A DNA stretch of 64,000 nt from Acetomicrobium hydrogeniformans (lineage in GTDB: Bacteria; Synergistota; Synergistia; Synergistales; JAFGMB01). The number at the start of each line of letters is the position of its first letter. Positions within the stretch are counted from its first letter, which is position 1. Shown piece by piece: positions 3,832-36,729 of this stretch. A model generated the notes under the pieces. It saw nothing but the letters and a program-made list of their open reading frames with translations, ran no database searches and was not told the DNA's origin. Both the position numbers and the translations under genes were made by a program. The stretch covers positions 246,799 through 310,798 of the forward strand of contig JAENYO010000001.1 of assembly GCA_016841745.1 (NCBI GenBank). Direction: 5' to 3'.

Positions 3832-3845
3832 ACGGACTGACCTTT
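3816..3845 (-). terminator. Terminator between convergent EamA and glnS genes
   Basis: A 9-bp stem AAAGGTCAG / CTGACCTTT with a 12-nt loop. On the minus strand it is followed by T-rich sequence, so it mainly serves glnS. It overlaps the last codons of the EamA gene. Confidence 0.75.
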
Positions 3846-3859
3846 AGTATCTAGATAGT

Positions 3860-5539
3860 TTAACCCTTTCGCTGCATCTTGGCCCAGGTATCCTTCAGAG
3901 AAACAGTTCTGTTGAATACCAGCTTTTCAGGTCTGCTGTCGTAATCAATACAGAAATAGCCATGGCGAAGGAACTGGAATCTATCCATAACCTGAGAATT
4001 CTGAAGAGAAGGTTCAACGAAACATTCGGTCAGGATTTTACGTGAATCCGGATTAAGATAATCTTTATAATCCTTACCCTCTTCCATTTCATCCATATTG
4101 CTAATAGTAAAGAGGTGGTCATAAAGGCGAACTTCCACCTTAAGGGCATGTTCAGCAGAAACCCAGTGAAGGGTTCCCTTAACCTTTCTTCCGTCGGGAG
4201 CATCCCCTCCCTTTGTTTCAGGGTCGTAGACACACCTGAGTTCAACTATTCCTCCATTCTCATCTTTGATAACTTCCTTGCAGGTAATGAAATATGCATG
4301 TTTCAGACGAACTTCCCTTCCGGGAGCAAGTCTGAAGAACTTTCTGGGAGGCTCTTCCATAAAATCATCTTTTTCAATATATATGGTCCTGGTAAAAGGA
4401 ACCTTTCTGTAGGTCGGCTCTTCAACTTCCGGGTTATTGAGTGCATCAAGGTATTCAGTCTGTCCCTCCGGATAATTCTCTATTACAACTTTCAGCGGGT
4501 TTAAAACAGCCATTACACGGTCAGTAGTACGATTTAGTTCCTCTCTTATGCAATACTGAAGGAACTCAATATCCACAAGACTATTGGCCTTCGATACACC
4601 TATATCCCGACAGAAACGTCTTATTGCCGAAGGAGAGTAACCTCTCCTTCTTACACCACTTATGGTTGGCATACGAGGGTCATCCCAGCCCGAAACATAT
4701 CTCTGGGTAACAAGTTCAAGGAGCTTCCTCTTGCTCATCAGGGTATATGTAAGGTTGAGTCTGGCAAATTCATACTGATGCGGACGGCTCGGCACACTCA
4801 CATTGTCAAGGAACCAGTCATAAAGTGGTCGGTGAGCCTCAAACTCAAGGGTACAAATGGAATGGGATACACCTTCAATGGCATCTTCAAAACCGTGGGC
4901 AAAATCATACATGGGATATATACACCATTTATCACCTGTATTATGGTGAGATTGTTTCAGGATCCTGTAAAGTATGGGGTCACGCATGTTAAGGTTGGCG
5001 TGAGCCATATCTATCTTCGCCCTGAGAACACATTCGCCTTCTTCGAATTCTCCGTTTTTCATTTTCTCAAAGAGTTCCAGGTTTTCTTCAGGAAACCTGT
5101 TTCGATAGGGAGATTCCATACCTGGTTCCTTTAACGTGCCCCTGGTCTGCCTGATCTCTTCTGCCGACTGGTGGTCCACATAGGCTTTACCGGAATCTAT
5201 AAGTTCAATGGCCCATCCGTAGAACTGGTCAAAGTAATCAGAGGCAAAACGGAGGTTGGCCCACTTGAAACCAAGCCATCTTACATCTTCCTTGATGGAT
5301 TCGACATACTCTGTTTCTTCTTTGGATGGATTGGTATCATCAAAACGAAGATTACATTCCCCTTTAAACTGCTCAGCAATGCCAAAATTCAGACAAATGG
5401 ATTTGGCATGTCCTATATGGAGATAACCATTAGGTTCAGGCGGGAAACGGGTGATTATTTTACTGACCCTACCCGCTTCAAGATCATCAAGAATGATCTG
5501 TTCGATAAAATTGGTGCCCTTCTGTATTCGTTGTTCCAT
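3860..5539 (-). CDS. glnS: Glutaminyl-tRNA synthetase
   Basis: A 559-residue class I synthetase that charges tRNA-Gln with glutamine. The HIGH motif is at about residues 41-44 ([15 protein letters not shown]) and the KMSKS loop at 268-272 (MSKRK). [15 protein letters not shown] and the following region are the beta-barrel anticodon-binding domains of GlnRS. The length matches bacterial GlnRS (about 550). The start codon is the first ATG with a GGTGGA-like SD. Possession of GlnRS implies direct Gln-tRNA charging, rather than reliance only on GatCAB transamidation. Confidence 0.97.
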
Positions 5540-16501: not shown

Positions 16502-16557
16502 AACTCGTGACCTGCGGTTCCGTAGACCGCCGCTCTATCCAGCTGAGCTACCGGCGC
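16502..16557 (-). pseudogene. Truncated tRNA-Arg(ACG) copy
   Basis: The first 56 of 77 nucleotides of the intact tRNA-Arg at 36561-36637. The 3' part, including most of the T arm and the acceptor strand with CCA, is replaced by unrelated sequence, so it cannot fold. Confidence 0.9.
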
Positions 16558-16567
16558 ACCTTAAAAA

Positions 16568-16649
16568 TGGCGGTGGGTGAGGGATTCGAACCCTCGAGGG
16601 AGGTTTGTGCCCCCCTACTCGCTTAGCAGGCGAGCGCCTTCGACCGGCT
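16568..16649 (-). pseudogene. Truncated tRNA-Ser(GCT) copy
   Basis: Matches the intact tRNA-Ser at 36648-36742 except that the first 13 nucleotides (5' acceptor strand and part of the D arm) are missing and replaced by element sequence. The promoter found upstream of the right-hand copy is also absent, so it should be silent. Confidence 0.9.
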
Positions 16650-16792: not shown

Positions 16793-17488
16793 TTATAATC
16801 CCGTATAAATTTCCTGCAAGCTCCTCAATAATTCAACGAGTTTAAAGACGGTAGTTGAAGGATTAGTGCAAGGATCCGGATAATAAGAATATAACAGTTG
16901 AGCATTTCTAATGGCATCATCCATCTTTTTTTCTAAATATGAATATATTTGGGAATCGTTTTTCTTATACTTGAAACCCAAGAACTTGGATAATTTTCCA
17001 CAATACTGAGACCTTGATAAACCACTATGTAAAAATGAAAAATGCAACAAATACCAGAGCTCAAAAGCTTCGTTAGAATGTGCTATTTTGATATTTAATT
17101 CCCTTGCCATCTTATGATTAATCATGGAAAAAGCAGCATTAAAGTGTTCTTTAGGAAAACTATCTCTGTCAAAAACACACCAGATTTCATCATATGACTC
17201 ATTATTTTGTGCTGCTTCTTTCCCCATAGAAACAGCTTTAGCAACAATTTGCTTAGTATTTATCCCAAGACCCTCGATATCGACAGTGTGAATAGAAGAA
17301 ACCTCAAAAGAATCAAAATATTGTGGCTCAGTTTTTGTCCCTTCGCATAATATTAAAATACGTTTTCTTTCATTAAGTTTCCCGACAGGTCTCTGATAAG
17401 ATTTCGCAGTACGTTTTCGTCCATCACATATTTCCTTTTTACGTTTGTTTTCCTTTTTTCGATCGTTCGACATCAATCTTATTCTCAC
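16793..17488 (-). CDS. RloB-like protein (AbiLii-type), TOPRIM-like
   Basis: About 231 residues matching RloB proteins. ILILCEGTKTEPQYFDSF (44-61) carries the metal-binding Glu49, and DEIWCVFDRDSF has D108 and D110, together a TOPRIM-like acidic set; SNEAFELWYLLHF is a further family block. The start is GTG at 17488, overlapping the rloA stop as GTGA; an ATG 15 bases on is possible. RloA/RloB pairs correspond to the abortive-infection system AbiL. The likely role is the effector nuclease or regulator partner of the ATPase; which of the two is toxic is not established here. Last gene on this side of the element. Confidence 0.85.
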   Translation of the reverse strand: MRIRLMSNDRKKENKRKKEICDGRKRTAKSYQRPVGKLNERKRILILCEGTKTEPQYFDSFEVSSIHTVDIEGLGINTKQIVAKAVSMGKEAAQNNESYDEIWCVFDRDSFPKEHFNAAFSMINHKMARELNIKIAHSNEAFELWYLLHFSFLHSGLSRSQYCGKLSKFLGFKYKKNDSQIYSYLEKKMDDAIRNAQLLYSYYPDPCTNPSTTVFKLVELLRSLQEIYTGL

Positions 17489-18849
17489 TTATCAGAAGAA
17501 GTTTCTTCAAGAAGCTTTTTTTCTAATTCCATTAACTCTTGATATTCACTTTCTTCCTGTTTTCGATTTGAAAAGATATCACGATATTTGATATTAGGAA
17601 TGCCTCCATATCTACCTGATAGATAATCTTTTTCAATAATTCGATCCTGGCGTGGTTTATAAGCAAGGAGAGGAATTAGTCGGGAAGAAGCATACCGATC
17701 TTTTTCCACAAACCAGATCTGATCTCTCCTTAATTCTTTTTTGTTCAAAGGTTTTGTATTTTGGGTTGAAAAGATTAATTGAGCATTATTCGGATTTGTC
17801 TTTTTAGAGTTGAACAATTTTAGAATAAAACTTATCAATAAACTATGAAATCTTGAATCAAGTTCGTCAATAACAAGAACTGACCCATTTCTTATTGCAT
17901 TAAGTATGGGTCCGAGTATAGCAAAATACTTCTGGGTCCCATCTGACTCTTGAGTCGTTAGATTAAATTCAATAAAGTCAACCTTTTCCCCTTTATCATT
18001 GAAAATAGGGTGAGAAAACTCAACAACTGAGGAGGCTTCTATATCTATATCAGACTTTTTAGCAAATTCTTCGAACTTCTCTCGTGCTTTCTTCGGTAAA
18101 TCTTTAAGTGATTCTTGAATAGATCTAACGTTAAAGCTTTCTATATTTAAATCAGCAACTTGCAAATATTTCACAATAATGTCTTTAAGGGAAGGATTCT
18201 TTTGGAGCATATCTAAAATTACATAACGATAGTCTTCATCATCTATTCCAGAAATAAAAAGGCTCTGTTGAAACCACTTTAGAACTTCTTTCCCCACTAA
18301 ATTATTCCATTGCGACGCAACGGAAATAAATAAGGCATTATCTCGAGTTTTGTCGATAAGATCTCTGGCATTTTTCATTTGTGGACCAAGTTGGAAAGCT
18401 TGAAATTCCCTAATAAATAATTTTGCTTCTCTACTACTTGTTGATTTGAATAACCATTCTCTATGAATTTTTTTCCCATCGACTTCAAAACCATATCGAT
18501 ATTGTGCTTGATTTTTCAAGAAAGTAACTTCAAAACAAGAAGGATTATGGCGAGTTTCAGCGTTTAGCAAGAAAGGTGTTACAGGAATAAGTTCATCTGA
18601 CTGAGATTCTTTTGCAGAATTAAGGACTAATGATCTCATGAAAGCAAATGCAAGAAGCATATTTGTTTTTCCACTAGCATTGGCACCCAATAAAGCAGCA
18701 CATGTTAGAATACGATTTGCAATTCCCTTCTTAATATCATGTTTAATAGTGTGACTCTCTTCTAATTCCTTTGCATGTGAAGCTACCATACTGAGTCTTG
18801 TTTCATCTTTAAACGAAAGAAAGTTTTTAAAATTAAACTCAATTAACAC
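17485..18849 (-). CDS. RloA-like AAA15/ABC-type ATPase (AbiLi-type)
   Basis: A 454-residue SMC/ABC-like ATPase of the AAA15 group. Walker A is GANASGKT at 55-62, the signature-like ESDGTQKY at 301-308 and Walker B VLVIDELD at 324-331, followed by the His-containing D-loop/H-loop region SRFHSLL and STQNT. The N-terminus IEFNFKNFLSFKDETRLSM is typical of the family. With RloB it forms an operon, joined by a GTGA overlap. The pair is expected to act as an anti-phage abortive-infection unit; the trigger is unknown. Confidence 0.88.
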   Translation of the reverse strand: MLIEFNFKNFLSFKDETRLSMVASHAKELEESHTIKHDIKKGIANRILTCAALLGANASGKTNMLLAFAFMRSLVLNSAKESQSDELIPVTPFLLNAETRHNPSCFEVTFLKNQAQYRYGFEVDGKKIHREWLFKSTSSREAKLFIREFQAFQLGPQMKNARDLIDKTRDNALFISVASQWNNLVGKEVLKWFQQSLFISGIDDEDYRYVILDMLQKNPSLKDIIVKYLQVADLNIESFNVRSIQESLKDLPKKAREKFEEFAKKSDIDIEASSVVEFSHPIFNDKGEKVDFIEFNLTTQESDGTQKYFAILGPILNAIRNGSVLVIDELDSRFHSLLISFILKLFNSKKTNPNNAQLIFSTQNTKPLNKKELRRDQIWFVEKDRYASSRLIPLLAYKPRQDRIIEKDYLSGRYGGIPNIKYRDIFSNRKQEESEYQELMELEKKLLEETSSDK

Positions 18850-18988
18850 AAGCCAGTCCTCCTAATTAAAACAAAAAACTACGTCTGAAAGAGATTTATT
18901 GAGATATTTTCTCAATTTTAATATTTTCGAATCACAATATGACTATAACTCCGTACAACCACATTGTCAAAGAAAAATCGTTTTTTAC

Positions 18989-21900
18989 CTATCCCACCCC
19001 TACAAAATCAGCATTAGCATTTACCTGATCCAACAAATTCACAATCTCAGTCGCCTCTGCAGGTTCGAATACACCATCGAGCCCTTCAAAGTGAATAGCG
19101 GTAAAAGGCTGCTCATAAAGAAGCCCTGGGTCCATAGTTCCTTTACTGGTCAAATAATCAATTATCTTTTCTATGAAACGGATTTGACTGGTATTGAAAC
19201 TGGTCTCGTCCATATACTTCGAAAACAGCTTAATGGCTGCTTCTCTATCTAGCCCGACAAGAGACCTGATGAAGACTGGCAATTTCTGTTTTCCATAAGC
19301 CTTCTCAAACAGCTCTTTACTCTGGGCTTCACCGGATTCAAAGAGGAATCTTTCCAGTTCAGACAGGTCAGTGGGCGTAAGAGGAAGATTATGTTTAAGC
19401 TTTTGGATAGCCACGTGATCCTGGTTCGACCTGATAAAATACTCCACCTTTTTCTTGTATTGCTTTATATTGATCCCGGTTTGAAAGGAGCCTACCTGCA
19501 CTTCTTCCTCTTCTCTGATCTCGTCCTGCAAAACCGTATAGACAGGCTCACTTCTCCTCTTTTCGATGAATTGAATGAGATCACGCAGCTTCTTTCTCAG
19601 ATTCTCTATTATGGGAAGTGTTATATCCTGCCAGTATTCGTCCGTCTGAACATCCAGAATCAGGTCCATTTGAGCTTTTACCATGGGGATGGTCTCTTTG
19701 TATTCCAGGTCGGAAGCCATCTCCTGAACCTTTTGTTTCAACCTCTCAAAGGAGACAGATTTCTCCATCAGGGCAAGCTGCAATTTGAGGCAGGTCAGGT
19801 CAAAGAGTTTAGCTGTTATATCTTCTGCCTCCTGTTCAGTGGGAAGTCCTGCTATGTAATGATAAAGCTCGCTCAGTTTCTCCATGTCAAGATTATTCCA
19901 GGCTTCTCTGTTCTGGAATCGATCAACATATCTTCGTTTTACCCTGACAATGAAATTATCCACGTTCATTGCAGATACTTCCCTATACAGAAGATCAATG
20001 GTTTCCAGGCGCAACTGTTCAAGTGGATCATCTTCTTCTGAATTACCAGAAGCTAGTGTTCCCATATTAGAAGGACCCTCCACAAAGATGTTCTGGATAG
20101 TCTCTATCAGTTGGAGTCGATACTTGAATATTTTCTTGGACAGAGGTTCTGCCTCAATGCCCTTGACTCCTTCAGGGTTTTCCCCGAAATACTCCATGTT
20201 TCCGCAGTAATCAAAGACATAGAAAAACGTCTTATCCTCATCCGGTCCAAATAGGTCTTCACAAAGCCGGGTCCCTCTCCCTATCATCTGGAGAAATTTC
20301 GTTCTGGACCTTACTATCTTGAAAAAGACAAGGTTCACCACTTCTGGAACATCTATGCCCGTATCAAGCATGTCTACAGATATGGCTATCTGTGGATATT
20401 TCTCTACGGAACTGAAGTCATCGAGGATGCTCTGGGCATATGTCTCATAGTTATCTATAACCCTTGCAAAATGTCCTTTAAGATGGGGATAGTGGATGTT
20501 AAAGCGTTTCTGGATAAACAGGGCATGTTCATGGTTCTTGGCAAAGATAATGGTTTTGCCCAGCTTGTCTCCACCTTCTACCTTCTGTCCCTTCTCCATA
20601 AGATGTTTCAACACCTTATCCACAGTATCCTCATTGAAGAGCCATTTATTCACTTCATTGGCACCTACAGAATCGGGGGCTCCATTTTCGAAGCGATCTC
20701 CCCAGTCGAGGCTTTCCCAATGGTCCTTTTCATCCTCGCTCAACTCGTCGTAATGGATACCTTCTCTGACAAACTTAAGAGGTACCGATACCGCTTTAGG
20801 TGGAACCAGGAAGCCATCTGCCACCGCATCTTCAAGCCCATAAGCGTCTGTGGGTATTCCTGTTTCCAGGTCGAATAAATGATAAGTGTCATGGTGCACT
20901 TCATCCCTCGGAGTAGCCGTAAGTCCAACCAGCAGTGAGTCAAAGTATTCGAAAATAGCACCATATTTCTGATAGACACTTCTATGGGCTTCATCTATAA
21001 CCACCAGGTCGAAATATCCCACGCCAAACCTTCTCTGGTCTCCTTTCATCCCATCTATAAGCCCCATCATGGTGGGATAGGTGGAAACATACACCCTTCC
21101 CTGGGAATCCTTTTCAGTAACTAGATTGACAGGGCTCGATTCAGGTAAGTGAGCCTTAAAGGCATTCACCGCCTGATTCACAAGGGCTACTCTATCTGCA
21201 AGGAACAGAACCCGTTTCACCCAGTTACACCTCATAAGAACATCCACAAGGGCAATGACTGTCCTTGTCTTTCCAGTACCTGTAGCCATCGCTAACAATC
21301 CCTTGCGCTGTCCCTTCATGAATTCCTCACTTAAGGATTCCATGACTCTTTTCTGGTAATAGCGATCCACTATGTTTTCTTTAACCTTCTGTCCATGCAA
21401 ATCTTTTCTTATACTTCTTCTCTCTATAAGTAGCTGAAGTTCATCTTTAGAATAGAAGCCCTGAATTAACCTCGGGGGATAGAACTTGTCGTCCCATATC
21501 CATGTCTCATATCCATTGGTGTAAAAGATGATGGGACGTCGACCTTTCACTTTCTCCAGACAATCGGCATATAGTTTTGCCTGCTGTTGCCCTACATGGG
21601 GATCAATGGTAGTTCTTTTCGCTTCTACTACTGCCAAAGGCAGTCCATCCTGTCCCCAGAGAACATAATCAACAAATCCTTCACCCTTGACATTGGGCAT
21701 CCCTGTAACAGGAAACTCCTCCGATACATCTTTACCTATGACCCAGCCTACTTCCTTGAGAAGAAGATCTATTATGAGCTTTCGTGTTTCATGTTCAGAA
21801 TAGTCATGATCATCCGGTATCTGGAGATTCTTCGCCTTTGCTACTGCCAGCTCTTCCCTTACCCGTACCAACTCTGCATTTAGTTCTTGCAATCTGGCTT

Positions 21901-22483
21901 CACGTTCCTCCAGCGTCATTGCTTGAGAAGAAAGGATAGCTTCCTGTTCCTGAAGTTGTCTATTCCTTTCTTCCCACTTCTGTTCCTGTTCAACTTCTAA
22001 CTGTTGAAGGGTTTCAATGGTTGAAGAATAAGCTGCTGGTTCTGCCTGGGCGGGTAGATCTGCATTGAAGGTAATATCCAGTTCTTGTGGGTTGCTTTGA
22101 CGAATATATGTTCTTGCAAGCCAATATAGAAAATGGAAAAGCTCCCTGCATATTTTTAGAGAGTCATGCTGCTGGAAAGGTCGTTGTGAATGGGCTGCCT
22201 GGTTTCCTGCCTTCTGAATAGCTCTCACCTTGTAAAAGAGCTGACTTGGGAGCAGATCCTTGAAGGTTGGCTCATGGATCATGGCTCCCAGCTTATTCTG
22301 ATAAGGTCTCCTCAGGGTTCTGTCATGGTCATAAAGCCAGTGAACGGCAAGTTCCAAGGTGAGCCTGGCATAGAAACAGCTTCCTCTGGGATCTGAATAA
22401 GCAAGATCCTCTACCCGTTTGGAATTGATAAAGAGCTCCTCAAATTCATCCTTCAAAAATGCAAAGTTGCTCATAGCGGTCAC
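18989..22483 (-). CDS. hsdR: Type I restriction enzyme R subunit
   Basis: A 1164-residue translocase-endonuclease. Order of parts: an N-terminal DUF4145-like helical region (about 1-135), a coiled coil rich in Gln/Glu (155-215), the nuclease core with VDYVLWG (D272) and E287-A-K289 in VVEAKR, Walker A ATGTGKT (400-406), DEAH (497-500), then helicase motifs including GLTATPRDEVH and RSRTKFLQMIGRGTRL, and a helical C-terminus for HsdM binding. All key motifs are intact, so cleavage should be active. GTG start overlaps the hsdS stop (GTGA); an ATG three codons on is an alternative. Third gene of hsdM-hsdS-hsdR. Confidence 0.95.
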   Translation of the reverse strand: MTAMSNFAFLKDEFEELFINSKRVEDLAYSDPRGSCFYARLTLELAVHWLYDHDRTLRRPYQNKLGAMIHEPTFKDLLPSQLFYKVRAIQKAGNQAAHSQRPFQQHDSLKICRELFHFLYWLARTYIRQSNPQELDITFNADLPAQAEPAAYSSTIETLQQLEVEQEQKWEERNRQLQEQEAILSSQAMTLEEREARLQELNAELVRVREELAVAKAKNLQIPDDHDYSEHETRKLIIDLLLKEVGWVIGKDVSEEFPVTGMPNVKGEGFVDYVLWGQDGLPLAVVEAKRTTIDPHVGQQQAKLYADCLEKVKGRRPIIFYTNGYETWIWDDKFYPPRLIQGFYSKDELQLLIERRSIRKDLHGQKVKENIVDRYYQKRVMESLSEEFMKGQRKGLLAMATGTGKTRTVIALVDVLMRCNWVKRVLFLADRVALVNQAVNAFKAHLPESSPVNLVTEKDSQGRVYVSTYPTMMGLIDGMKGDQRRFGVGYFDLVVIDEAHRSVYQKYGAIFEYFDSLLVGLTATPRDEVHHDTYHLFDLETGIPTDAYGLEDAVADGFLVPPKAVSVPLKFVREGIHYDELSEDEKDHWESLDWGDRFENGAPDSVGANEVNKWLFNEDTVDKVLKHLMEKGQKVEGGDKLGKTIIFAKNHEHALFIQKRFNIHYPHLKGHFARVIDNYETYAQSILDDFSSVEKYPQIAISVDMLDTGIDVPEVVNLVFFKIVRSRTKFLQMIGRGTRLCEDLFGPDEDKTFFYVFDYCGNMEYFGENPEGVKGIEAEPLSKKIFKYRLQLIETIQNIFVEGPSNMGTLASGNSEEDDPLEQLRLETIDLLYREVSAMNVDNFIVRVKRRYVDRFQNREAWNNLDMEKLSELYHYIAGLPTEQEAEDITAKLFDLTCLKLQLALMEKSVSFERLKQKVQEMASDLEYKETIPMVKAQMDLILDVQTDEYWQDITLPIIENLRKKLRDLIQFIEKRRSEPVYTVLQDEIREEEEVQVGSFQTGINIKQYKKKVEYFIRSNQDHVAIQKLKHNLPLTPTDLSELERFLFESGEAQSKELFEKAYGKQKLPVFIRSLVGLDREAAIKLFSKYMDETSFNTSQIRFIEKIIDYLTSKGTMDPGLLYEQPFTAIHFEGLDGVFEPAEATEIVNLLDQVNANADFVGVG

Positions 22484-23661
22484 AACTCCCCGTTAAATGC
22501 TCTTTGTTGGAGGGAAGAGAAAAGGGTATTAATTCGTTCAAGACTTGCCTGAAAATCTGATTTTTCTATTTTTAAACAATCATAGAATTTCGAAAACCTT
22601 AACTGCTCTTCTATCGGTGGAATATAAAGTTTAATCTTTACCATACGTGTTAAACCGAGATCTTTATTTGCGATACCATGGGTATATCGTTGTGACTGGA
22701 CGTAACAATAGTTTGTATTCAACATTGCCTCAAGCCATTTGGGATCAACTTTATTTTTTCTAAGTTTTAATAATGCAACATGGACCCATACAGCTATCGG
22801 TTGATCAAAATCTATATGGGTAGCAATACCTGTCGTCCCACCTTTAGAGTAAAGAATATCACCCTTCACGGGCTTGCACTTCTTCCAATGCTGTTCTGCT
22901 TCTTCAAGATCAATGAACTTTAAATCTTCCCAAATTACCTCTCCGAGGCTGATATTCCTTGTAGAAAGAAACGGAATTCCATTTTCCGAATATGATGGGC
23001 TGACATGAGGTCCATCTTTTGCTGAATAAATCACTTCACCCAGGACTCCAAAATCCCACCCCTTTGGATTCGTCACAGGATCCCCGAACATATCCAGAAA
23101 AACAGACTGAAGCAGTTCATCCAGTTTGGCAATTGCCTGCTGGCGTTTTTGACGGAGGGCATCAGCTTTGTCAAGAATGGTAGCTATGCGTTTCTGTTCT
23201 TCCAGCGGGGGAAGGGGGATTTCAAAAGACTCTAGCTGCTTTGGGCTTATGTTAACTTGAGCAACACCTACCGCCATTTGAGAAATTTTTCTTTGAAATA
23301 ACTCAGACATTAAGTAATGGTGTAAGAAATCTCGGTTGATTTTTGTATCATCTAATATCTCAAATCTCGCAATACGTTGGTTTAAATAAACCGGCTCTGT
23401 AATATGTAAGGGCATAATCCCTATTTTCCCTATACTACCGGAAAGACCCATAAGAATATCATCAGGGAAGACTTGATATTTCTGTTTACCTTCTACTTTT
23501 GTTAGAGGTATCCGAATGGCTCCTTTAATATCTACAGTCCCCCCACCAATATTGCACATTCTAATCACGGGACATCCTTTATCACTAAAGTCCTTAGATT
23601 TAAAAGCAAAACCACCAATTACCCTTACATACTCTTCAAGAAAGTGCCTGGAAACAATCAC
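22480..23661 (-). CDS. hsdS: Type I restriction-modification specificity subunit
   Basis: A 393-residue DNA-recognition subunit with two target-recognition domains separated by conserved helices. The first TRD covers roughly 1-150 and ends with PLPPLEEQKRIATILDKADALRQKR (the coiled spacer). The second starts near NPKGWDFGVLGEVIYSAKDGP and ends IPPIEEQLRFSKFYDCLK. The recognition sequence cannot be read from the protein. It is joined to hsdM and hsdR by GTGA overlaps, so stoichiometry is set by coupling. Confidence 0.94.
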   Translation of the reverse strand: MIVSRHFLEEYVRVIGGFAFKSKDFSDKGCPVIRMCNIGGGTVDIKGAIRIPLTKVEGKQKYQVFPDDILMGLSGSIGKIGIMPLHITEPVYLNQRIARFEILDDTKINRDFLHHYLMSELFQRKISQMAVGVAQVNISPKQLESFEIPLPPLEEQKRIATILDKADALRQKRQQAIAKLDELLQSVFLDMFGDPVTNPKGWDFGVLGEVIYSAKDGPHVSPSYSENGIPFLSTRNISLGEVIWEDLKFIDLEEAEQHWKKCKPVKGDILYSKGGTTGIATHIDFDQPIAVWVHVALLKLRKNKVDPKWLEAMLNTNYCYVQSQRYTHGIANKDLGLTRMVKIKLYIPPIEEQLRFSKFYDCLKIEKSDFQASLERINTLFSSLQQRAFNGEL

Positions 23662-25142
23662 TTCAACATATCCTCCAGCTCAGTAAGTCCTGCCTGGATC
23701 TCTGATTCAAGATCTTTCAAATCAATCAGGATCTTGTGGGGAGAATCATATTCAACTTCCTCATATACTATCTCCTTATATCTGTTGATGGAAAGGTCAT
23801 AACCGTTCTCAGCAATTTCTCCTTTGGGTACAAAGAAAGATTGATCAGTTCGTTTCCTTACATCCTCTTCTTGCAGATTTTTCCAGCGAGAAATTATATC
23901 TGCAATGTTGTTGTTTCCATGCTTCCCATCGTTGAGAGGGGTACGTTTATCATCCAGGGAGTAACCATCTGCCTGCATGTCATAGAACCATACCTTGTCT
24001 GTCCCACCAGAGTTGGTCTTAGTGAAAACCAGCACCGCCGTGGAAACCCCTGCATAGGGCTTGAACACTCCAGAAGGCATTGAGATGACAGCATCCACCT
24101 TCTGATCTTCCACAAGAATCTTACGTAACCCCTTATGAGCTTTTGAAGAACCGAACAACACACCATCGGGAACAATAACTGCAGCTCTTCCACCTGGCTT
24201 TAGGAGTCTGAGGAAAAGGGTAAGGAACAACAATTCTGTCTTTTTGGTCTTAACAACTTTGAGCAGATCCTTGGAGCAGCTTTCATAATCGAGGGAACCT
24301 GCAAAGGGGGGGTTAGCAAGGATAAGAGTATACTGTTCCTCTATTCCTGCATGGTCTTCTGAAAGAGAGTCCCTGTTCTGAATGTCCGGGTTCTCGATTC
24401 CATGCAGAAGCATATTCATGGAACCTATCCTCAACATAGTGCTGTCAAAATCGAAACCGTTGAATGTGTCATGGTTAAATCGTCGCATAGCTTCTGGATC
24501 GGTAAATATCTCCGGGTGATTATTTCGCAAGTACTCTGAAGCAGCTACCAGGAATCCGGCAGTTCCACAGGCAGGATCACAGATAATATCCGTGGGTTTG
24601 GGAGCAACAAGCTCCACCATCATCTTGATGATATGACGAGGAGTTCGAAATTGACCATTCTGACCAGCTGTAGCTATCTTTCCAAGCATATATTCATAAA
24701 GGTCACCCTTAGTATCACGATCATCCATGGGTATCTCATCGAGCATATCCACTACTTTTGCCAGTAATGCTGGGTTAGGTATTGTAAACCGTGCATCCTT
24801 CATGTGCTTTGTGTAGGTAGATTTTTCCCCATTGCCGAGATTTTTTATGAAGGGGAATACCTTTTCACTAACCACTTTGTACATATCTTCAGGAGATCCA
24901 AGGGATTTGAACTTTGACCATCTTAATTCTTGTTCTTCAGGGTTGAAGATAGGCTTTTCTATCGGTCGGTTTAAGCGATGAGCTCTGCTTTCCCTGGCAG
25001 TATGAAGTTCATCAAGCCTCTTAATGAAAAGAAGATAGGTCATCTGCTCGATGACCTCCATGGGATTTGCAATACCTCCAGCCCAAAACGCATTCCATAC
25101 CCGGTTAATTTGATTTTGAATTTCTCCAGTGATCAAGTACAT
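23658..25142 (-). CDS. hsdM: Type I restriction-modification N6-adenine methyltransferase
   Basis: A 494-residue methyltransferase. N-terminal HsdM_N helical domain (about 8-135), SAM-binding motif DPACGTAGF (189-197) and the catalytic NPPF (277-280) with ILANPPFAGSLDY, typical of m6A enzymes. SD GGAGGTAG stands directly before the ATG. First gene of the operon, which matches the usual need to modify host DNA before HsdR appears. It is preceded by a promoter-like sequence at 25209-25238. Confidence 0.95.
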   Translation of the reverse strand: MYLITGEIQNQINRVWNAFWAGGIANPMEVIEQMTYLLFIKRLDELHTARESRAHRLNRPIEKPIFNPEEQELRWSKFKSLGSPEDMYKVVSEKVFPFIKNLGNGEKSTYTKHMKDARFTIPNPALLAKVVDMLDEIPMDDRDTKGDLYEYMLGKIATAGQNGQFRTPRHIIKMMVELVAPKPTDIICDPACGTAGFLVAASEYLRNNHPEIFTDPEAMRRFNHDTFNGFDFDSTMLRIGSMNMLLHGIENPDIQNRDSLSEDHAGIEEQYTLILANPPFAGSLDYESCSKDLLKVVKTKKTELLFLTLFLRLLKPGGRAAVIVPDGVLFGSSKAHKGLRKILVEDQKVDAVISMPSGVFKPYAGVSTAVLVFTKTNSGGTDKVWFYDMQADGYSLDDKRTPLNDGKHGNNNIADIISRWKNLQEEDVRKRTDQSFFVPKGEIAENGYDLSINRYKEIVYEEVEYDSPHKILIDLKDLESEIQAGLTELEDMLK

Positions 25143-27517: not shown

Positions 27518-28375
27518 ATGTCCCGATACACTGCAATTCACTCAATAATCTGGAGGGATGATGTCTTTAATAGCCTCAGCGAGAAGGGGAAGTTGTTCTT
27601 CATCTACACTCTCACTTCTCCACACTCGAACATGCTGGGACTGTATCTGCTACCCAAATCATACATAACCTACGACATGCACTGGTCACCAAAGGACGTT
27701 GACGAGATTATCCAGGAACTTCAGGAGCTTGATTTCATCCGCTATGACGAAAACGAAATGATCTACATTCCCAAGTTCTTGAAACACAATCCAATAACCA
27801 ACATTAACCAGATGAAAGGGGCTTCAAACACCCTTTTAAACCTACCTGAAAACTCCTTTCAAGAAGATGTCCTGAACATCCTTAAAGCTAGTGTTAACAA
27901 TGCTTCGGACAAACAACAGGAGTGTATGGATTCCGTTTACAAGGGGCTTATAAGGGGCTTGGAAGGGGCTTCGAAGCGGCTTGTAGGGGGCTACGAGGCG
28001 GCTACGAAGGAAAGAATAAAGAATAAAGAAACAAGAATAAAGAAACAAGAAACCCGTGATAGCCAGAAAGTAGCAGAATACAATAAGGTGATTGAAGATA
28101 GGTTTGAGGACTTCTGGAACTCCTATCCTCGGAAGACGGACAAGAGAAGAGCCCGATCTCGCTTCGCGAGTTTGTTTCCCCTTGATATGGACAAAGAAAA
28201 ACGCCAGAAGAGGCTTCAGCATATGGGACTACATCTTCACCAGTATGTCGAGGAAACATCTGACCTTGAGGAAAGGTATGTCAAGCACCCTGCTACTTGG
28301 CTTAACAGTGTGGACTTCGACTTTCCACCAGATCCGAAACCTAATCATCAGCTTCAATGGGGTGATGCTCAATGA
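27518..28375 (+). CDS. Phage-type replication initiator / replisome organiser
   Basis: A 285-residue protein. The N-terminal half (MSRYTAIHSIIWRDDVFNSL..., GKLFFIYTLTSPHSNMLGLYLLP, YDENEMIYIPKFLKHNPITN) is the winged-helix domain of phage replication proteins related to DnaD/replisome organisers. A linker follows, then a C-terminal DEDRF...WNSYPRKTDKRRARSRF-type helicase-loading tail. The linker is encoded by six tandem 11-bp repeats, so the gene probably contains its own origin, as lambda O does. SD GGGAGGAA. The stop overlaps the next start as ATGA, coupling it to the ATPase. Confidence 0.8.
   Translation: MSRYTAIHSIIWRDDVFNSLSEKGKLFFIYTLTSPHSNMLGLYLLPKSYITYDMHWSPKDVDEIIQELQELDFIRYDENEMIYIPKFLKHNPITNINQMKGASNTLLNLPENSFQEDVLNILKASVNNASDKQQECMDSVYKGLIRGLEGASKRLVGGYEAATKERIKNKETRIKKQETRDSQKVAEYNKVIEDRFEDFWNSYPRKTDKRRARSRFASLFPLDMDKEKRQKRLQHMGLHLHQYVEETSDLEERYVKHPATWLNSVDFDFPPDPKPNHQLQWGDAQ
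27941..28006. repeat. Six tandem 11-bp iterons inside the initiator gene
   Basis: Consecutive units start at 27941, 27952, 27963, 27974, 27985 and 27996 with consensus AAGGGGCTTNN; units 4-6 vary at one to three positions. The period equals about one helical turn, which suits side-by-side binding of an initiator. A purine/A-rich stretch follows at once. Confidence 0.9.
28007..28052. other. A-rich putative unwinding region beside the iterons
   Basis: About 45 bp composed almost only of A, G and T on this strand, including a 14-bp direct repeat AAGAATAAAGAAAC at 28019-28032 and 28033-28046. Adjacent to the iterons it has the layout of a DNA-unwinding element of a lambda-type origin. Confidence 0.6.
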
Positions 28376-29526
28376 TCAGCGATATCCTCATGAAGATGAA
28401 GGCTTTAGACATGGACATCGACCTTGAACGGGAGAAAATTAGACTAGTGAAGGTCTTTACGGAAGATTACTATAAACGTGGTCTGAAACCCTATGAAATT
28501 CTCCTTCAGCTAAGGGATGACGTGAATAAGGTCGGTACTCCCCTATCCCAATCAAAGGTATGGCAAATTGTGGTTCAAGCCTATAGGGAGTGCATAAGGT
28601 GCAACAACCTGGATGAAGCCTTAAACAATTTCTACATCGCTAATCCTTCTGAATATCTCAACAAGTATGCGGATGAAACCCGGACATGGCGAAAGGTTCC
28701 GCTCCTTCGTACAGGGATAGATAAACTGGATAATTCTTCAGGAGGAGGATTGTTACCTGGTCAACTCCTAGTCATTACAGGGGGTGAGGGAAGCATGAAA
28801 ACTTCCCTCGCTCTCAAGATGATCGAGACATACCTTAAGGAAGTCCAGGAAACGGTCTTGTTCTTCTCCCTGGACATGGAAGCAGAAAGAATTGTCTTTA
28901 GAAGGCTTCTCCCTCTAATGGGAATGGGTTACAAGTCAGCAATCAATGAAATGCAGAAAGGAACGGATGAATACAGAGATGCTGTGGCAAAGCGTGAGGA
29001 AATTGACAATGGGAATTTCCGAATTGTTGATGGTACTCACGACCTGGAGAAGATCAAGACGGTAATAGAGTTTGAAGCCCCCTCAGTGGTGGTCATTGAC
29101 TACCTGACATGTATTGAGGGTTTCAGAAACGAGCTTGACTCTGCAAGGGAATCAATTAAGCGTATCCGTGAATGGAAACGTGAGTACGGCATAACCTTTA
29201 TCACCCTGAACCAGTTGAGCGAAGCAAGTAAGGCAAACCAGAGACAGGGATATCTCAATCCCCCTGCTATGGGAGGCGGGTCAAGCCAACAGGCAGCAGA
29301 CGTAAAGATAGACCTGTTCAAGGACATGCCTTCCCAGGATGAAGAATGGTTGCAAACCAAGCCCAGGATAATAGCCACCATATCAAAGACCAGAGATGAG
29401 GTTGCAGGAAGATCCTTTGACCTGGAATACAGCGGTCAAACGATGTCCTTTACTGGTAATTGCAAGGAGGTTTTCAGGCTCAAGGAACAGAAAGCGATAT
29501 TTGCAGACTGCGAACTTCCGATATGA
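28372..29526 (+). CDS. DnaB/RecA-like ATPase, probable element helicase
   Basis: A 384-residue P-loop ATPase of the DnaB/RadA group. An N-terminal helical region (1-105) precedes Walker A GGEGSMKTS (137-145), Walker B VVVIDYL (239-245) and downstream ITLNQLSEASK...QAADVKIDL, the sensor and arginine-finger region. It has no DnaB-type N-terminal dimer domain, so it may be a replicative helicase of phage type or a loader. Coupled by ATGA overlap to the replication initiator, it completes a self-replication module. Confidence 0.8.
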   Translation: MISDILMKMKALDMDIDLEREKIRLVKVFTEDYYKRGLKPYEILLQLRDDVNKVGTPLSQSKVWQIVVQAYRECIRCNNLDEALNNFYIANPSEYLNKYADETRTWRKVPLLRTGIDKLDNSSGGGLLPGQLLVITGGEGSMKTSLALKMIETYLKEVQETVLFFSLDMEAERIVFRRLLPLMGMGYKSAINEMQKGTDEYRDAVAKREEIDNGNFRIVDGTHDLEKIKTVIEFEAPSVVVIDYLTCIEGFRNELDSARESIKRIREWKREYGITFITLNQLSEASKANQRQGYLNPPAMGGGSSQQAADVKIDLFKDMPSQDEEWLQTKPRIIATISKTRDEVAGRSFDLEYSGQTMSFTGNCKEVFRLKEQKAIFADCELPI

Positions 29527-29757: not shown

Positions 29758-29829
29758 GGGTTCCTAGCATCATCAACTCCCTTAAAGCTAGTCAGATATT
29801 TATCAAGGAGTTGATGATGCTAGGAACCC
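29758..29829. repeat. 23-bp perfect inverted repeat with 26-bp spacer
   Basis: The arm 29758-29780 (GGGTTCCTAGCATCATCAAC, then TCC) is matched without error by its complement at 29807-29829. It begins 5 bp after the Zn-ribbon gene's stop codon. No T-run follows either arm, so it is not a standard terminator. It could be a replication terminus, recombination site, single-strand origin or stable RNA. Confidence 0.9.
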
Positions 29830-31381: not shown

Positions 31382-34300
31382 TTATTCCAGTATTTTTTTG
31401 ATCAAGCGATAGTGGAAATCTCGTAAATCCAATTCTCCTTTTCCGCCTAAACCATTGACAACCCTATTAAGAGCCAATAGATCTTCTTTTTCTTGTGCTA
31501 AACTGCATAATTTTTCTATCATGTCTTTCAAAACATCTCGATAGTAAATCAAGTTTGAAGGATCTTCGTCATAACAAACGATATTCTCAACGATATGAAT
31601 AACCTTAGAAAAGAACTTCGGAAGATTTTTATTCATAACTGATAGAACCTGTTTGGGTCTCTCAATTAGTTGAATATCGCTTGTAATGTTAAAAAGCAGA
31701 TTGATTGACCATTCATAATTAAATTTTTCTGAAGCAAACCATTTCCCGAAAAGGGATAACTCTCTTATCATTGTCTTAGGTTTATTCTGATATCTAAAAA
31801 TCGATAGTCTTTCCTTAATAAGTGTTTGTAATCTTTTTTTTACGTCTTCCGGCATCTCTTCTTTAATTCGTTTTAAACTTCTTCCAACAAAATCCATTGC
31901 ATAATCCCTGTATCTTTGATCATATTCTCCAAAAAAGATTTCATGATGCAGGCACATGGATCTTTCATCAAAGGTACCCCACCAATACAACATCAATATA
32001 TGTTCGATAAGCCTTTTTTCAACATTTGATAATTCCTCATTTCCTCCTTGATCTCTGATTGACTGGCAATATCTCAAGGTCTCCCAATACACAAATTCAA
32101 GGAAAGGAAATATGGAAAAACTAGGCGAATTCGTTTGCAAATATGAATCAAATATAGCTTGACGATGTCCTTCAAACCCTTCAGATAACTGGATAATTGA
32201 CATTATGCTCTTAAATAATTCTCGATCTACTCGGAATAAAAAATCGAAATATTCTCCATATACAGAATGGACAATTACAGAGGGTTCATTAGCTAAATCT
32301 AATCTCTGTTCAAGGAATTCCTTTGTTTCAGCAGGAATCAAAAATTGTTCTTCATCTCTGTTCTCGTATAACCAAGAAATATAGATCAATACGCAGCGCA
32401 TAGCTATTCCCCTAACGGTATTTAGAGAGAGAGTCAAAGAATCGCTAGGATATTTTCCCAATAAATCCTCCTTTTCTGAAGACACAGAAGGAGATTCTTT
32501 GTCTTCAGACAATCGAATAAGGATATTCCATATGTCATCTTTAAAACCAAGTGGAATTAAATTCTCCTTCCTATCAAATAAATTCTCAATCAACCTTGCT
32601 ATCTCAATATAAGTTAGTGACTTCGACGAAGCACCTGGATATTCTCTCAGCGTCGGATCTTCGTCAAAATATTCATTTTCTTTATCTAGAATCGACTTGA
32701 TGAACGAAAAAAGTTTATGCCAATTCATGATTTTCTGATCTCCTGCTTCGGATAAGCCACGGAGTATTCCTCTAAGATAAAAGGGTTTCAACTCGGAAAA
32801 AAGGAGAAGGTCAGGGATTACGAATTCCCCTTGCTTAAACACATTTGTTAGAGTCCTCTCTAACCCTTCATATGAAGAACTCAGCAGTTCGTCGCTAGGT
32901 TTCCAATTCTCTATATATTTTTTAAGTCCTTCAGTATCCATGCTCATTAGCTCTTTAACGGTCTTAGGGCTTTTATATCCCCAATGGGGACCACTTGTGA
33001 AAACCGGGAAATCAACATGCTTGTTCTCACCAAATTTTGCAACCACATTTGTATAAATTTCATCCCATGGCTCTGCCAGGAAAGAAGATATTGGAGATAG
33101 ATACTTATATCTCCACCTTTCAAATTTTTCTTTAGATTCATTACAATCAAAGTCCTCTTTTGGAAAATGCAACATATGCCACTCCTGGCTGAAGTTTGAA
33201 TCAGCAAAATATCCTAAATACTGCTTCTGCGTAGTTTTAGAAAAGTTTTTGAAGTGATTTCTGAGAAGATAAAAATATTCATGCCTTAAAGACACATCGT
33301 TTAATATGTTTTGCTTTAACACTAATTTTTCAGTACTTGGTTGCATAAGATCTAAGAATTGAGACCTCAAATAAATTCCAATTCTTTGAAATATTTTATA
33401 TGGTCTTTCTTCAAGTTCAGTTATAACCCTTGGATCATGTGTTTCTTGCAATATCTCTGTAGCTAAATCCCTGATGCTAGCAGCAAGCAAGCTTTTTTTG
33501 TCACTTGTATCCCTATTCTGCTCATGATCTTCAACTGCGGGTCGCCACAAATTTGAGTAATCGTAAATGGAATGTTTACTTTCTGTATTTTTAGTCTCAA
33601 GACAAATGTAATTGATCAGAGTATTGCAAAGGAGATCAAGTGTTTTCTTGGGCTGTCTAACAAATAAATCTGAGCAAATCGGACCCTTTACAATTGTTTC
33701 AAAATGCCAATAATCCAAATTGCGCATACGCGCACTACTCTCTTGGGATGAATTCAATAGGTCATTTGTAAGTGTGTACGCTTCATAATAAAAATTGTTT
33801 TTTGAAAGCTTGGATATCAGTTGCCCTAATTGGTCCATCATGATTGGATAATTCCCGACACTAATCCATTCACAAATTCTACTTGATAACTTCTTCGTAT
33901 TTGTAGGGTTAGTCACCAATGCAATCTCAATGTAATCCTGAAGAATCCAGATATTATCGTTCCTAGGTATTACATTTTCCATTATTTCAACAACTTTATT
34001 TTCATCATCTTGAACCATATTTCGAAGGAGAATACTAGTAAGACTCCATCGTGGTATTATCCAAGTATCCTTTTCTTTAGCAGGAATTTTTTGGGGAATT
34101 TTTTTAAACTCTTCATTTTCACAAAAAAAATCTAACCACTTAGGATTATGTGTTTTAGATATCTCTTCATAAAAATAAGCGATTGATACATCTTCGAGAA
34201 GAAGTGGTTTTAGTTCCGTGGAATAATCAGAATTCCCTGGACCTTTTCTAATAATGTTGTCAAATCGGTCAAGCCGTTCAAAAAAAAGAAGATTTTTCAT
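31382..34300 (-). CDS. 972-residue helical protein partnered with a SIR2 enzyme
   Basis: No enzymatic motif could be found: no Walker A, no nuclease or protease signature. The sequence is uniformly alpha-helical with alternating hydrophobic/charged segments, as in HEAT/TPR-like solenoids; W, Y and F are frequent. It starts 10 bp after the SIR2 stop, so the two are coupled. Large helical partners of SIR2 NADases act as sensors of phage proteins in known systems, where they are often fused to the SIR2 domain; here the parts are separate. Resemblance to the DUF4020 type of SIR2-associated domain is possible but unchecked. The region is clearly A+T-rich. Confidence 0.7.
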   Translation of the reverse strand: MKNLLFFERLDRFDNIIRKGPGNSDYSTELKPLLLEDVSIAYFYEEISKTHNPKWLDFFCENEEFKKIPQKIPAKEKDTWIIPRWSLTSILLRNMVQDDENKVVEIMENVIPRNDNIWILQDYIEIALVTNPTNTKKLSSRICEWISVGNYPIMMDQLGQLISKLSKNNFYYEAYTLTNDLLNSSQESSARMRNLDYWHFETIVKGPICSDLFVRQPKKTLDLLCNTLINYICLETKNTESKHSIYDYSNLWRPAVEDHEQNRDTSDKKSLLAASIRDLATEILQETHDPRVITELEERPYKIFQRIGIYLRSQFLDLMQPSTEKLVLKQNILNDVSLRHEYFYLLRNHFKNFSKTTQKQYLGYFADSNFSQEWHMLHFPKEDFDCNESKEKFERWRYKYLSPISSFLAEPWDEIYTNVVAKFGENKHVDFPVFTSGPHWGYKSPKTVKELMSMDTEGLKKYIENWKPSDELLSSSYEGLERTLTNVFKQGEFVIPDLLLFSELKPFYLRGILRGLSEAGDQKIMNWHKLFSFIKSILDKENEYFDEDPTLREYPGASSKSLTYIEIARLIENLFDRKENLIPLGFKDDIWNILIRLSEDKESPSVSSEKEDLLGKYPSDSLTLSLNTVRGIAMRCVLIYISWLYENRDEEQFLIPAETKEFLEQRLDLANEPSVIVHSVYGEYFDFLFRVDRELFKSIMSIIQLSEGFEGHRQAIFDSYLQTNSPSFSIFPFLEFVYWETLRYCQSIRDQGGNEELSNVEKRLIEHILMLYWWGTFDERSMCLHHEIFFGEYDQRYRDYAMDFVGRSLKRIKEEMPEDVKKRLQTLIKERLSIFRYQNKPKTMIRELSLFGKWFASEKFNYEWSINLLFNITSDIQLIERPKQVLSVMNKNLPKFFSKVIHIVENIVCYDEDPSNLIYYRDVLKDMIEKLCSLAQEKEDLLALNRVVNGLGGKGELDLRDFHYRLIKKILE

Positions 34301-34310
34301 CTCAACAACC

Positions 34311-35378
34311 TCATCTTTTTACAAAAGGATCTAGTTTTCCCACAGGCGAAACAGTATCTAACAAATTCTGGACCTGTTTTAGAATTCTTGAAATATCAGC
34401 AAAATCCTCAACTCTAATCGTGCGAACTCCCAATTCCAAGAATATCTTATTCTCCTCTTCTTCTTGTGCATAATCTCTTTTCGAAGGACTCCCCTCAAGA
34501 ACAGTACGTTTTGTTCTAAGAATAATATACTTGGGTGGAAGTTCCCAGTTTGGATGCCTCGTTTGCAATGTCTTGAATATTTCCGACATCTTCTGGAAAA
34601 TTTTCTGAATCGGGTCTTCGCTAAGGCTATAACCAATAAATATAATTGAATTCAACTTCAACAATTCATTCAAAAAAGAGTCAACAATAAAGGAATATGT
34701 TGGTTCACTAAAATCCCTTGATGTAAAAACCAGGTTTTTTGCTGAAGGATGAGGAGAAGTGTCTGCTGGGAAAATATAGCCATGCATATAGAAAAGAGGC
34801 AAACGTACCCCTATTTCTCTCCAATCACCAATATCTTTGGAAACATAGTTAGGATAATCGTTAATCGAATATTTAATCGGATTTCCCCCAAAATGTCGAC
34901 TCACAGCTTTAGCTAATAAGGGATCAAAATTCGTTGTTAGAAACCCAGCTATAGGAAGATGCAATAAAAGAGTAATCTCTTCAGGAATACAAGCAGGGTC
35001 TTTGCTAAAAAGATCGATTAACGTTTCTTCATATTTATCTAAGTTTACATTTTTGCATTCATGTGCTTTCCCCAAAAGAACACAAGACGTAGCTGTTTCT
35101 CCACTTTCAATTGGAGGTACACCACATTTTTCACACAGTTCCTGAACTGTCTGTTTCCAATCAAGATATTGAGCTTGCTTTGATACCCCAGAACCTATCC
35201 AGATATAGGTTCCAGATTGAGCTAGTAATACATTTTTAAGTTCGGAAGCTACAGATGAAATATTTTGACTCAACACAAAAGAACCCCTATCCCAACGCAA
35301 ATATTGACTGATTGAACTGTAGAAAAACATATCCGAATAATTTTGTATTATCTTTTTAATAATATCATTATTAAACAA
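34311..35378 (-). CDS. SIR2-family protein, candidate defence NADase
   Basis: A 355-residue SIR2_2-type protein. IGSGVS (61-66) is the NAD phosphate loop, TTNFDPLL has N150 and D152, YMHG has the catalytic-position H199, and FIGYSLSED (247-255) closes the site, so the catalytic residues look intact. No Cys-pair zinc module typical of deacetylases is seen. SIR2 domains of this type in defence islands deplete NAD+ after phage sensing. First gene of a three-gene operon in a mobile element full of defence genes, supporting that role. Confidence 0.85.
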   Translation of the reverse strand: MFNNDIIKKIIQNYSDMFFYSSISQYLRWDRGSFVLSQNISSVASELKNVLLAQSGTYIWIGSGVSKQAQYLDWKQTVQELCEKCGVPPIESGETATSCVLLGKAHECKNVNLDKYEETLIDLFSKDPACIPEEITLLLHLPIAGFLTTNFDPLLAKAVSRHFGGNPIKYSINDYPNYVSKDIGDWREIGVRLPLFYMHGYIFPADTSPHPSAKNLVFTSRDFSEPTYSFIVDSFLNELLKLNSIIFIGYSLSEDPIQKIFQKMSEIFKTLQTRHPNWELPPKYIILRTKRTVLEGSPSKRDYAQEEEENKIFLELGVRTIRVEDFADISRILKQVQNLLDTVSPVGKLDPFVKR

Positions 35379-35494: not shown

Positions 35495-36436
35495 TCATTT
35501 TTCAAACCTTCTCTTTCTATCTTTGCTATCAGAGATAACCGACAAGGGTGTTCCTATGCTATGTTGTTGCCTCACATCCCCTTCAACTAAATGGACATAT
35601 CTTTCTGTCATCTGCATAGTTGAGTGTCCCATGATCCTCTGTAGTGCAAGAGCATTCCCACCGTTTCTCAAAAACAGGGTGGCAAAGGAATGACGAAGCA
35701 TATAAGGGGTTACCTTTGATGGGAGTTTCCTGCTGTATTTATTCAGCCTTTTTCCCCACCAATCTCCGGACATTTTAGTTCCTTCAAAAGTAGAAAACAC
35801 TGGAATATCCTTTCTCCAATTGGGGTGTCTTGCTACTAATAGCTTCTTGATAACCTTCACTGTTGTAGGGCTCAGAGGGAGGGTTCTGGATGTTCGGGTC
35901 TTTGCTATTGGCGCTGGAACCCTTACTTCCAGACTAGATAGGGTAAAGTCCGCCTCTTGTAAAGATAGGGCTTCTCCGGGGCGTATACCCGTATCCAGTG
36001 TAAAGATTATAAGGGCATAATCCCGATATCCTGCAAAGGTCTTTTTATCAGGCAAGCATAAGAGCTTTTTCAGGACCTCAGCATCAACCTCAACAAACTT
36101 TCCAGGGTTCTTCCTTTTCTTCAATCCTTGTGTGGGATCTGAAGGGAATATTCCCTCCTCCATTCCCCATGAGAAAAATACACGAAGATTTGAAAGTCTT
36201 AGGTTGTGTGTAGTAGGTGTTTGAGCTGATGCAATGAAGGAAAGGACAGAGGAACGGGTCTTGAGGGTTGTTGAGTAGGCTTCAGGATAAAGCTTGAAGA
36301 AATGGGAAATGATCTTCCTGTAATCTTTAACGGTTCTGTCAGCCTTCCCTAAAGCTCTCTGAAGGTTCAAGAAATCCCGCAATGCTTCTTGGAAATCTGG
36401 TCTCTGCCACCTTTTCATTTCCACTACTTTAGCCAT
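35495..36436 (-). CDS. int: Tyrosine recombinase (element integrase)
   Basis: A 313-residue phage/XerC-type integrase. An N-terminal SAM-like DNA-binding domain (about 15-100, FLNLQRALGKADRTVKDY) precedes the catalytic domain with R152 (DTGIRPGEAL), K179, Y245-x2-R248 (PYMLRHSFAT, Tyr in place of the usual His), H271 (IMGHSTMQMTERY) and nucleophile Y280. It lies about 125 bp from the intact tRNA-Arg, as expected for an integrase next to its att site. Its start codon follows a terminator hairpin whose 3' arm contains the SD (GGAGGGAA), which may limit its translation on read-through transcripts. Confidence 0.95.
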   Translation of the reverse strand: MAKVVEMKRWQRPDFQEALRDFLNLQRALGKADRTVKDYRKIISHFFKLYPEAYSTTLKTRSSVLSFIASAQTPTTHNLRLSNLRVFFSWGMEEGIFPSDPTQGLKKRKNPGKFVEVDAEVLKKLLCLPDKKTFAGYRDYALIIFTLDTGIRPGEALSLQEADFTLSSLEVRVPAPIAKTRTSRTLPLSPTTVKVIKKLLVARHPNWRKDIPVFSTFEGTKMSGDWWGKRLNKYSRKLPSKVTPYMLRHSFATLFLRNGGNALALQRIMGHSTMQMTERYVHLVEGDVRQQHSIGTPLSVISDSKDRKRRFEK

Positions 36437-36560: not shown

Positions 36561-36637
36561 TGGCGCGCCGGACAAGATTCGAACTCGTGACCTGCGGTTC
36601 CGTAGACCGCCGCTCTATCCAGCTGAGCTACCGGCGC
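36561..36637 (-). tRNA. tRNA-Arg (anticodon ACG)
   Basis: A 77-nt cloverleaf: acceptor GCGCCGG pairing with CCGGCGC, TAGCTCAG D-arm start, anticodon stem GCGGT/ACCGC with loop CTACGGA, TTCGAATC T loop, discriminator G and encoded CCA. The 3' 21 nucleotides lie outside the 148-bp repeat, so the element appears to restore or supply this end. Confidence 0.97.
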
Positions 36638-36729
36638 ACCTTAAAAATGGCGGTGGGTGAGGGATTCGAACCCTCGAGGGAGGTTTGTGCCCCCCTACTC
36701 GCTTAGCAGGCGAGCGCCTTCGACCGGCT
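36582..36729. repeat. Right boundary repeat of the element (148 bp, attR side)
   Basis: Identical in sequence and orientation to 16502-16649. It starts within the T arm of tRNA-Arg and ends in the D loop of tRNA-Ser. Both tRNAs are complete on this side. Confidence 0.95.

Follow-up and report, generated by a model that had tools for sequence, protein, structure and literature searches.

An integrative element and its initiator gene

The window analysed here, a 64,000-nucleotide stretch of the Acetomicrobium hydrogeniformans genome, contains an integrative element of ~20 kb that is bracketed by 148-bp direct repeats and carries its own integrase (Table 1). Defence cargo occupies 16793-25142 and 31382-35378, and includes a type I restriction-modification system (hsdR/S/M), a Dsr1-like protein of 972 residues beside a SIR2/ThsA-like protein, and a two-gene pair at 16793-18849, one gene for an ATPase-like protein and the other for a small one. 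Among the proteins scanned, no phage structural genes were noticed, and the element looks, as read from its sequence, satellite- or ICE-like, with a replication module of its own.

Table 1. Coordinates of the element, its replication genes and the proposed origin features within the window
Feature	Position	Strand	Evidence
Left-hand 148-bp direct repeat at the element boundary (copies identical)	16502..16649		Sequence comparison
Initiator gene, 285 residues: N-terminal winged helix, linker, C-terminal domain	27518..28375	+	ORF list; phrog matches
N-terminal winged-helix domain, about residues 1-108, putative iteron reader	27518..27841	+	AlphaFold2, winged-helix matches, HMM
N97 codon, K/N position tracking iteron class in two subfamilies	27806..27808	+	Alignment
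Single AAGGGGCTT unit upstream of the array	27816..27824	+	Motif match
Six 11-bp iterons, proposed initiator-binding sites	27941..28006	+	Sequence, Tandem Repeats Finder, shuffles
Purine/A-rich tract with 7-bp periodicity, a proposed site of melting and helicase loading	28007..28053	+	Composition, repeats
Gene for a DnaB-like replicative helicase; overlaps the initiator stop	28372..29526	+	PF03796 E=1.2e-19; phrog_19
Tyrosine integrase of the element	35495..36436	-	PF00589 E=1.5e-24
Right copy of the 148-bp repeat, covering parts of tRNA-Arg/tRNA-Ser genes	36582..36729		Sequence comparison, tRNA genes

We find that the phrog_1701 profile (DnaD-like helicase loader) matches the window initiator over nearly its full length (residues 1-268, E=1.4e-26), and it matches 37 of 59 array-bearing homologues too; phrog_270 and phrog_6251 match the window protein as well, and DnaC, P, DnaB or primase-helicase genes adjoin several named homologues. 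Sequence comparison thereby supports its identification as a replication-initiator homologue. No trusted Pfam family is found in the window protein, the only hit being a sub-threshold FliD_C (E=0.05). It gives no match to the Pfam phage replication protein O domain, to PF06970 (RepA_N), which likewise has no match among the 59 array-bearing homologues, or to the DnaD-type C-domain PF07261 (DnaB_2), which is matched by 4 of 59 relatives. As judged by Pfam, the window initiator is outside the lambda O and RepA_N families.

AlphaFold2 predicts a confident winged helix for the N-domain (about residues 9-108, with pLDDT of about 95 over most of residues 11-108), and the C-terminus is poorly predicted. 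Structure comparison of the N-domain model retrieves generic winged helices without a clear nearest initiator, the staphylococcal RepA_N structures 4pql, 4pt7 and 5kbj scoring Z 7.7-8.2, tied with LexA and CRP; no solved structure is related by sequence to the window initiator, the matches being low-complexity. Just 3' of the replication operon, a perfect 23-bp inverted repeat (29758-29780 and 29807-29829, with a 26-bp spacer) is a candidate terminator, single-strand or plasmid-type site.

Iterons and an adjoining tract within the initiator gene

The first-pass annotation had reported six head-to-tail 11-bp units inside the coding region, and these are indeed present after the winged helix, in the linker-coding part of the 285-residue ORF, where they correspond, in frame, to residues 142-163. 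The units start at 27941, 27952, 27963, 27974, 27985 and 27996 and read, in order, AAGGGGCTTAT, AAGGGGCTTGG, AAGGGGCTTCG, AAGCGGCTTGT, AGGGGGCTACG and AGGCGGCTACG, the array ending at 28006. Exact AAGGGGCTT occurs only in units 1-3, whose full 11-bp form is AAGGGGCTTNN, with one to three mismatches in units 4-6. Tandem Repeats Finder returns periods of 11, 22 and 33 at the array, and the 11-residue period every three units that had been pointed out holds, 33 bp being 11 codons. Shuffles that permute synonymous codons, keeping both the protein and the codon pool, never reach the lag-11 score of the array (0 of 5000) or its consensus score of 48/54 (0 of 20000; mean 36.9). Because no such shuffle reaches its scores, the array is more than chance.

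The 47 bp that follow the array consist of 33 A, 8 G, 3 C and 3 T, with periods of 7, 14 and 21 at 28011-28053 (Tandem Repeats Finder). Given a purine content of 87% and these periods, the description of nearly pure purine, A-rich DNA with a 14-bp direct repeat was correct. GC skew along the element is uninformative, showing no turning point at the array site, and no Rfam RNAs were found besides tRNAs.

Related arrays and what is conserved in them

A second initiator in the host genome (L002), with 42% N-domain identity to that of the window, also has AAGGGGCTT units: five of them, arranged as AAGGGGCTTAT-AAGGGGCTTCG, a gap, and AAGGGGCTTAC-AAGGGGTTTGG-TAGGGGCTTGC, followed by an ACAG-rich tract. 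At least 120 viral contigs, and 81 genome-contig stretches, contain three AGGGGCT motifs spaced 11 bp apart, and control searches of the viral contigs return 4 with the core scrambled and 3 with 14-bp spacing. An HMM seeded only from residues 1-112 of the window initiator, and therefore free of array sequence, recognises an initiator ORF in 144 of the 194 array loci, and in 114 of the 120 viral ones, among the matches listed; about one quarter of array matches, mostly in genome contigs, are unrelated tandem repeats or partial loci without an initiator ORF. Array and initiator ORF occur together, among the matches listed, in Clostridium, Salinicoccus, Bacteroidetes, Ignavibacteria, Parcubacteria, Alpha-, Beta- and Gammaproteobacteria, Polyangia, Elusimicrobia and Nitrospira, host names that are taken from record titles and that may be wrong in single cases because many records are MAGs.

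Relatives were also collected by protein similarity, that is, without regard to DNA repeats, so that these samples are free of motif bias. When the window N-domain served as query, two to six AGGGGCT/AGCCCCT units were present in 27 of 29 clusters, and lag-11 periodicity is significant in 17 of the 29 clusters versus none of 29 neighbouring ORFs; units are absent from L406 and from a Proteus pR997 relative. Among named phages and same-phylum genomes, about 15 of the 26 genes tested, the window not counted, have a significant lag-11 signal, and a clear 11-bp array is absent in about ten relatives. The expectation that homologous initiators would carry iterons in their linkers is thus borne out by homologues retrieved through protein alone. 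Several of the lag-11-significant genes use other sequences at the same place, namely GATACNGTATC in Geobacillus E2, ATACAGTATC in Psychrobacillus PVJ1, ACGAATCGTGG in Oenococcus Krappator27 and TATCGATA-like units in L212, so the 11-bp layout is, in the sequences compared, commoner than any single unit. The whole window initiator as query gave no matches in viral and genome contigs, where the N-domain alone did, and the L212 N-domain gave none in viral contigs.

These searches also turned up some minor points of annotation. In Acinetobacter phage YMC/09/02/B1251 (L207), where the initiator spans 2995-3891, the deposited CDS begins at 3268 and so lacks the N-terminal winged helix. Listeria phage LP-030-3 (L232) has an unannotated initiator ORF with 11-bp ATACAGTATGG units at 2001-2478, at the record end. 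The E. coli K-12 Rac gene ydaU (L244, 5120-5977) has GTGTTCAAAC/GTGTTTGAAC repeats in its linker, candidates for Rac oriJ; we rejected it as a relative, its N-domain being different (DUF1376 in RefSeq) and its lag-11 signal weak (18/33).

Orientation and frame were counted in 45 non-redundant homologue clusters with arrays. Linker arrays, read as AAGGGGCTT or AAGCCCCTT, occupy all three frames in both the opposite (10/11/8) and the same (3/7/5) orientation, and the N-domain tree of 39 clusters needs no fewer than 25 changes in orientation and frame combined, and 10 in orientation. With both orientations, three frames and this many changes on the tree, the conserved entity is, on the evidence of these alignments, the DNA and not the encoded peptide. 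This also makes an exceptionally clear example of a DNA-level signal that has persisted within a coding gene whatever the reading frame. Selection on DNA had been proposed for the window array, and both the six orientation-by-frame states of the AGGGGCT-type arrays and the failure of any synonymous shuffle to reproduce the window array agree with it; linkers that keep their protein sequence and lose the DNA repeat would have argued the other way, and we see the reverse, one DNA repeat read in all six combinations.

That selection acts on the protein, favouring a basic and repetitive linker whose peptide brings the DNA repeat along with it, is accordingly hard to reconcile with these states, with the absence of any shuffle that reaches the window score, or with the 7-bp tract periods of some clusters; the linker is variable and charged, and arrays in the N-domain are mostly constant in frame, as such selection could produce, but we consider it very improbable. 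Those N-domain arrays are second arrays, found within N-domain codons in many homologue genes and mostly in one frame, and since their frame is mostly constant, protein constraint may contribute there. In L207, L204 and L064, for example, a second AAGGGGCTT array lies at about codon 12 or 55, which puts it roughly 80-100 codons ahead of the one in the linker.

The same comparison bears on two further explanations. Replication slippage could have made functionless repeats, and array and tract are both tandem, with tract length differing among close relatives; yet one 9-bp core recurs in unrelated frames and in many phyla, which control repeats do not, and we give slippage only a slender chance. 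A G-quadruplex or other strand structure might be read from the GGGG runs that recur at 11-bp intervals along one strand of the window, but the GATACNGTATC, ACGAATCGT or TATCGATA arrays of relatives lack G runs and array orientation varies among homologues, which leaves this explanation with almost no credence.

The tract recurs too. Of 40 clusters, 30 have a 5-7-bp repeat tract on the 3' side of the linker array, mostly at a distance of 25 bp or less, and none has one on the 5' side, whichever way the iterons point. The tract period is 6 in 24 of the 30, with a mean purine content of 79% and A+T of 67%. Because some homologue tracts are AACAGG repeats, which are not A/T-rich, strand asymmetry rather than A/T content seems to be their common property.

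The residue that aligns with N97 of the window initiator tracks the iteron class in two subfamilies. In the Firmicutes-type subfamily, every one of the 20 sequence types that have GATAC iterons carries K there (S[PST]KV), and the 7 that have AAGGGG iterons all carry N, a direct contrast being offered by L158 (SPNV) and PVJ1 (SPKV). In the window-type subfamily, N goes with AAGGGG in the window and L002, and K with TATCGATA in L212 and L213. The proteobacterial subfamily breaks the rule, having K with AAGGGG. This co-variation of a residue after the winged helix with iteron class, which involves two subfamilies and few independent switches, is a lead.

A proposed intragenic origin and its counterparts

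We confirm what the first-pass annotation observed at this locus, and its functional reading, an intragenic origin, is most likely right: there is a high probability, in our judgement, that 27941-28053 is the replication origin of the ~20-kb integrative element, inside its own initiator gene. From the sequences compared, we infer binding, melting, helicase loading and origin activity in the following form. The N-terminal winged helix of the initiator would bind the 11-bp, pseudo-palindromic iterons, each one helical turn long, and bound initiators would build a nucleoprotein array along one face of the DNA. The neighbouring strand-asymmetric repeat tract would then be melted or captured as a single strand, and the C-terminal domain of the initiator would load the element's own DnaB-like helicase there. 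Weighing against this reading are the relatives that have no clear array or no AGGGGCT units, the exception that the proteobacterial subfamily makes to the K/N rule, the lack of a GC-skew turning point and the mostly constant frame of the N-domain arrays.

The repeats might instead be operators for repression of the initiator gene by its own product, and not an origin; initiators of iteron replicons often autoregulate, and initiator binding would likewise explain the K/N co-variation. However, the array is 420 bp into the gene, the tract, where found, is always 3', and array and tract together resemble proven origins (PMC6316719, PMC7466680), and we regard autorepression as unlikely.

Beyond the origin proposed for this element, we lean somewhat towards a wider rule, in which one large family of winged-helix phage initiators in many phyla would share a common origin grammar: intragenic, pseudo-palindromic 11-bp iterons of one turn, then a strand-asymmetric tract of ~6-bp period, with a 9-bp core, AAGSSSCTT, kept through at least 25 frame or strand changes and an iteron class set in part by one residue after the wing. 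Most temperate phage and satellite origins are unmapped, and if the rule is true, sequence would suffice to locate the origins in hundreds of uncultured phages and integrative elements, and a single substitution in laboratory phages could test the recognition code (K/N at one residue versus GATACNGTATC/AAGGGGCTT). An intragenic iteron origin is of a known kind. Five array strings are absent from open-access text, and a single-unit query returned nothing relevant among the top matches, subscription papers falling outside the scope of the search; within open-access text, the 11-bp, one-turn, cross-phylum iteron with a polar tract is a variant that seems not to have been described before.

The layout had been likened to that of lambda ori, and the likeness stands, with iterons and then an A-rich tract inside the initiator gene. 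Lambda iterons are about 18-19 bp long, whereas those of the window are 11 bp; the window initiator also differs in having no Pfam phage O domain, and the element encodes a DnaB-like helicase next door in place of the P loader. Lambdoid origins place their iterons and AT tract mid-gene O, and resemble the window in this central position, in an A/T-rich tract after the iterons, proposed to melt in the window, and in a helicase-partner gene downstream (PMC7466680). Bacillus phage SPP1, likened here by its published description, has oriL in gene 38, with direct repeats and an AT-rich DUE inside the initiator gene, and a set of initiator, loader and DnaB-type helicase (PMC6316719); the window parallels these features, its tract being a proposed melting region. 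The DnaD-like rep of Lactococcus phage TP901-1 likewise has repeats and then an A-rich stretch in its linker-coding part, but its repeats are 15 bp long, its N-domain is different and it has no lag-11 signal.

In the RepA_N plasmid pSK41, a winged-helix N-domain binds Rep boxes central in rep, the origin encodes the linker and the C-domain is DnaD-like (PMC5703833); RepA_N plasmid iterons are semi-palindromic (PMC7145576). The resemblance to pSK41 and pSK1 is one of layout only, an array in the central, linker-coding part of the initiator gene, and the window differs from them in having no PF06970 match, other iterons and a strand-asymmetric repeat tract after the array. By analogy, the best reading is that the window origin would work like lambda ori or the pSK41 Rep boxes. 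A useful precedent is pPR9, where a minireplicon relies on a hybrid RepA_N plasmid initiator whose N-domain is phage-like (PMC5703833).
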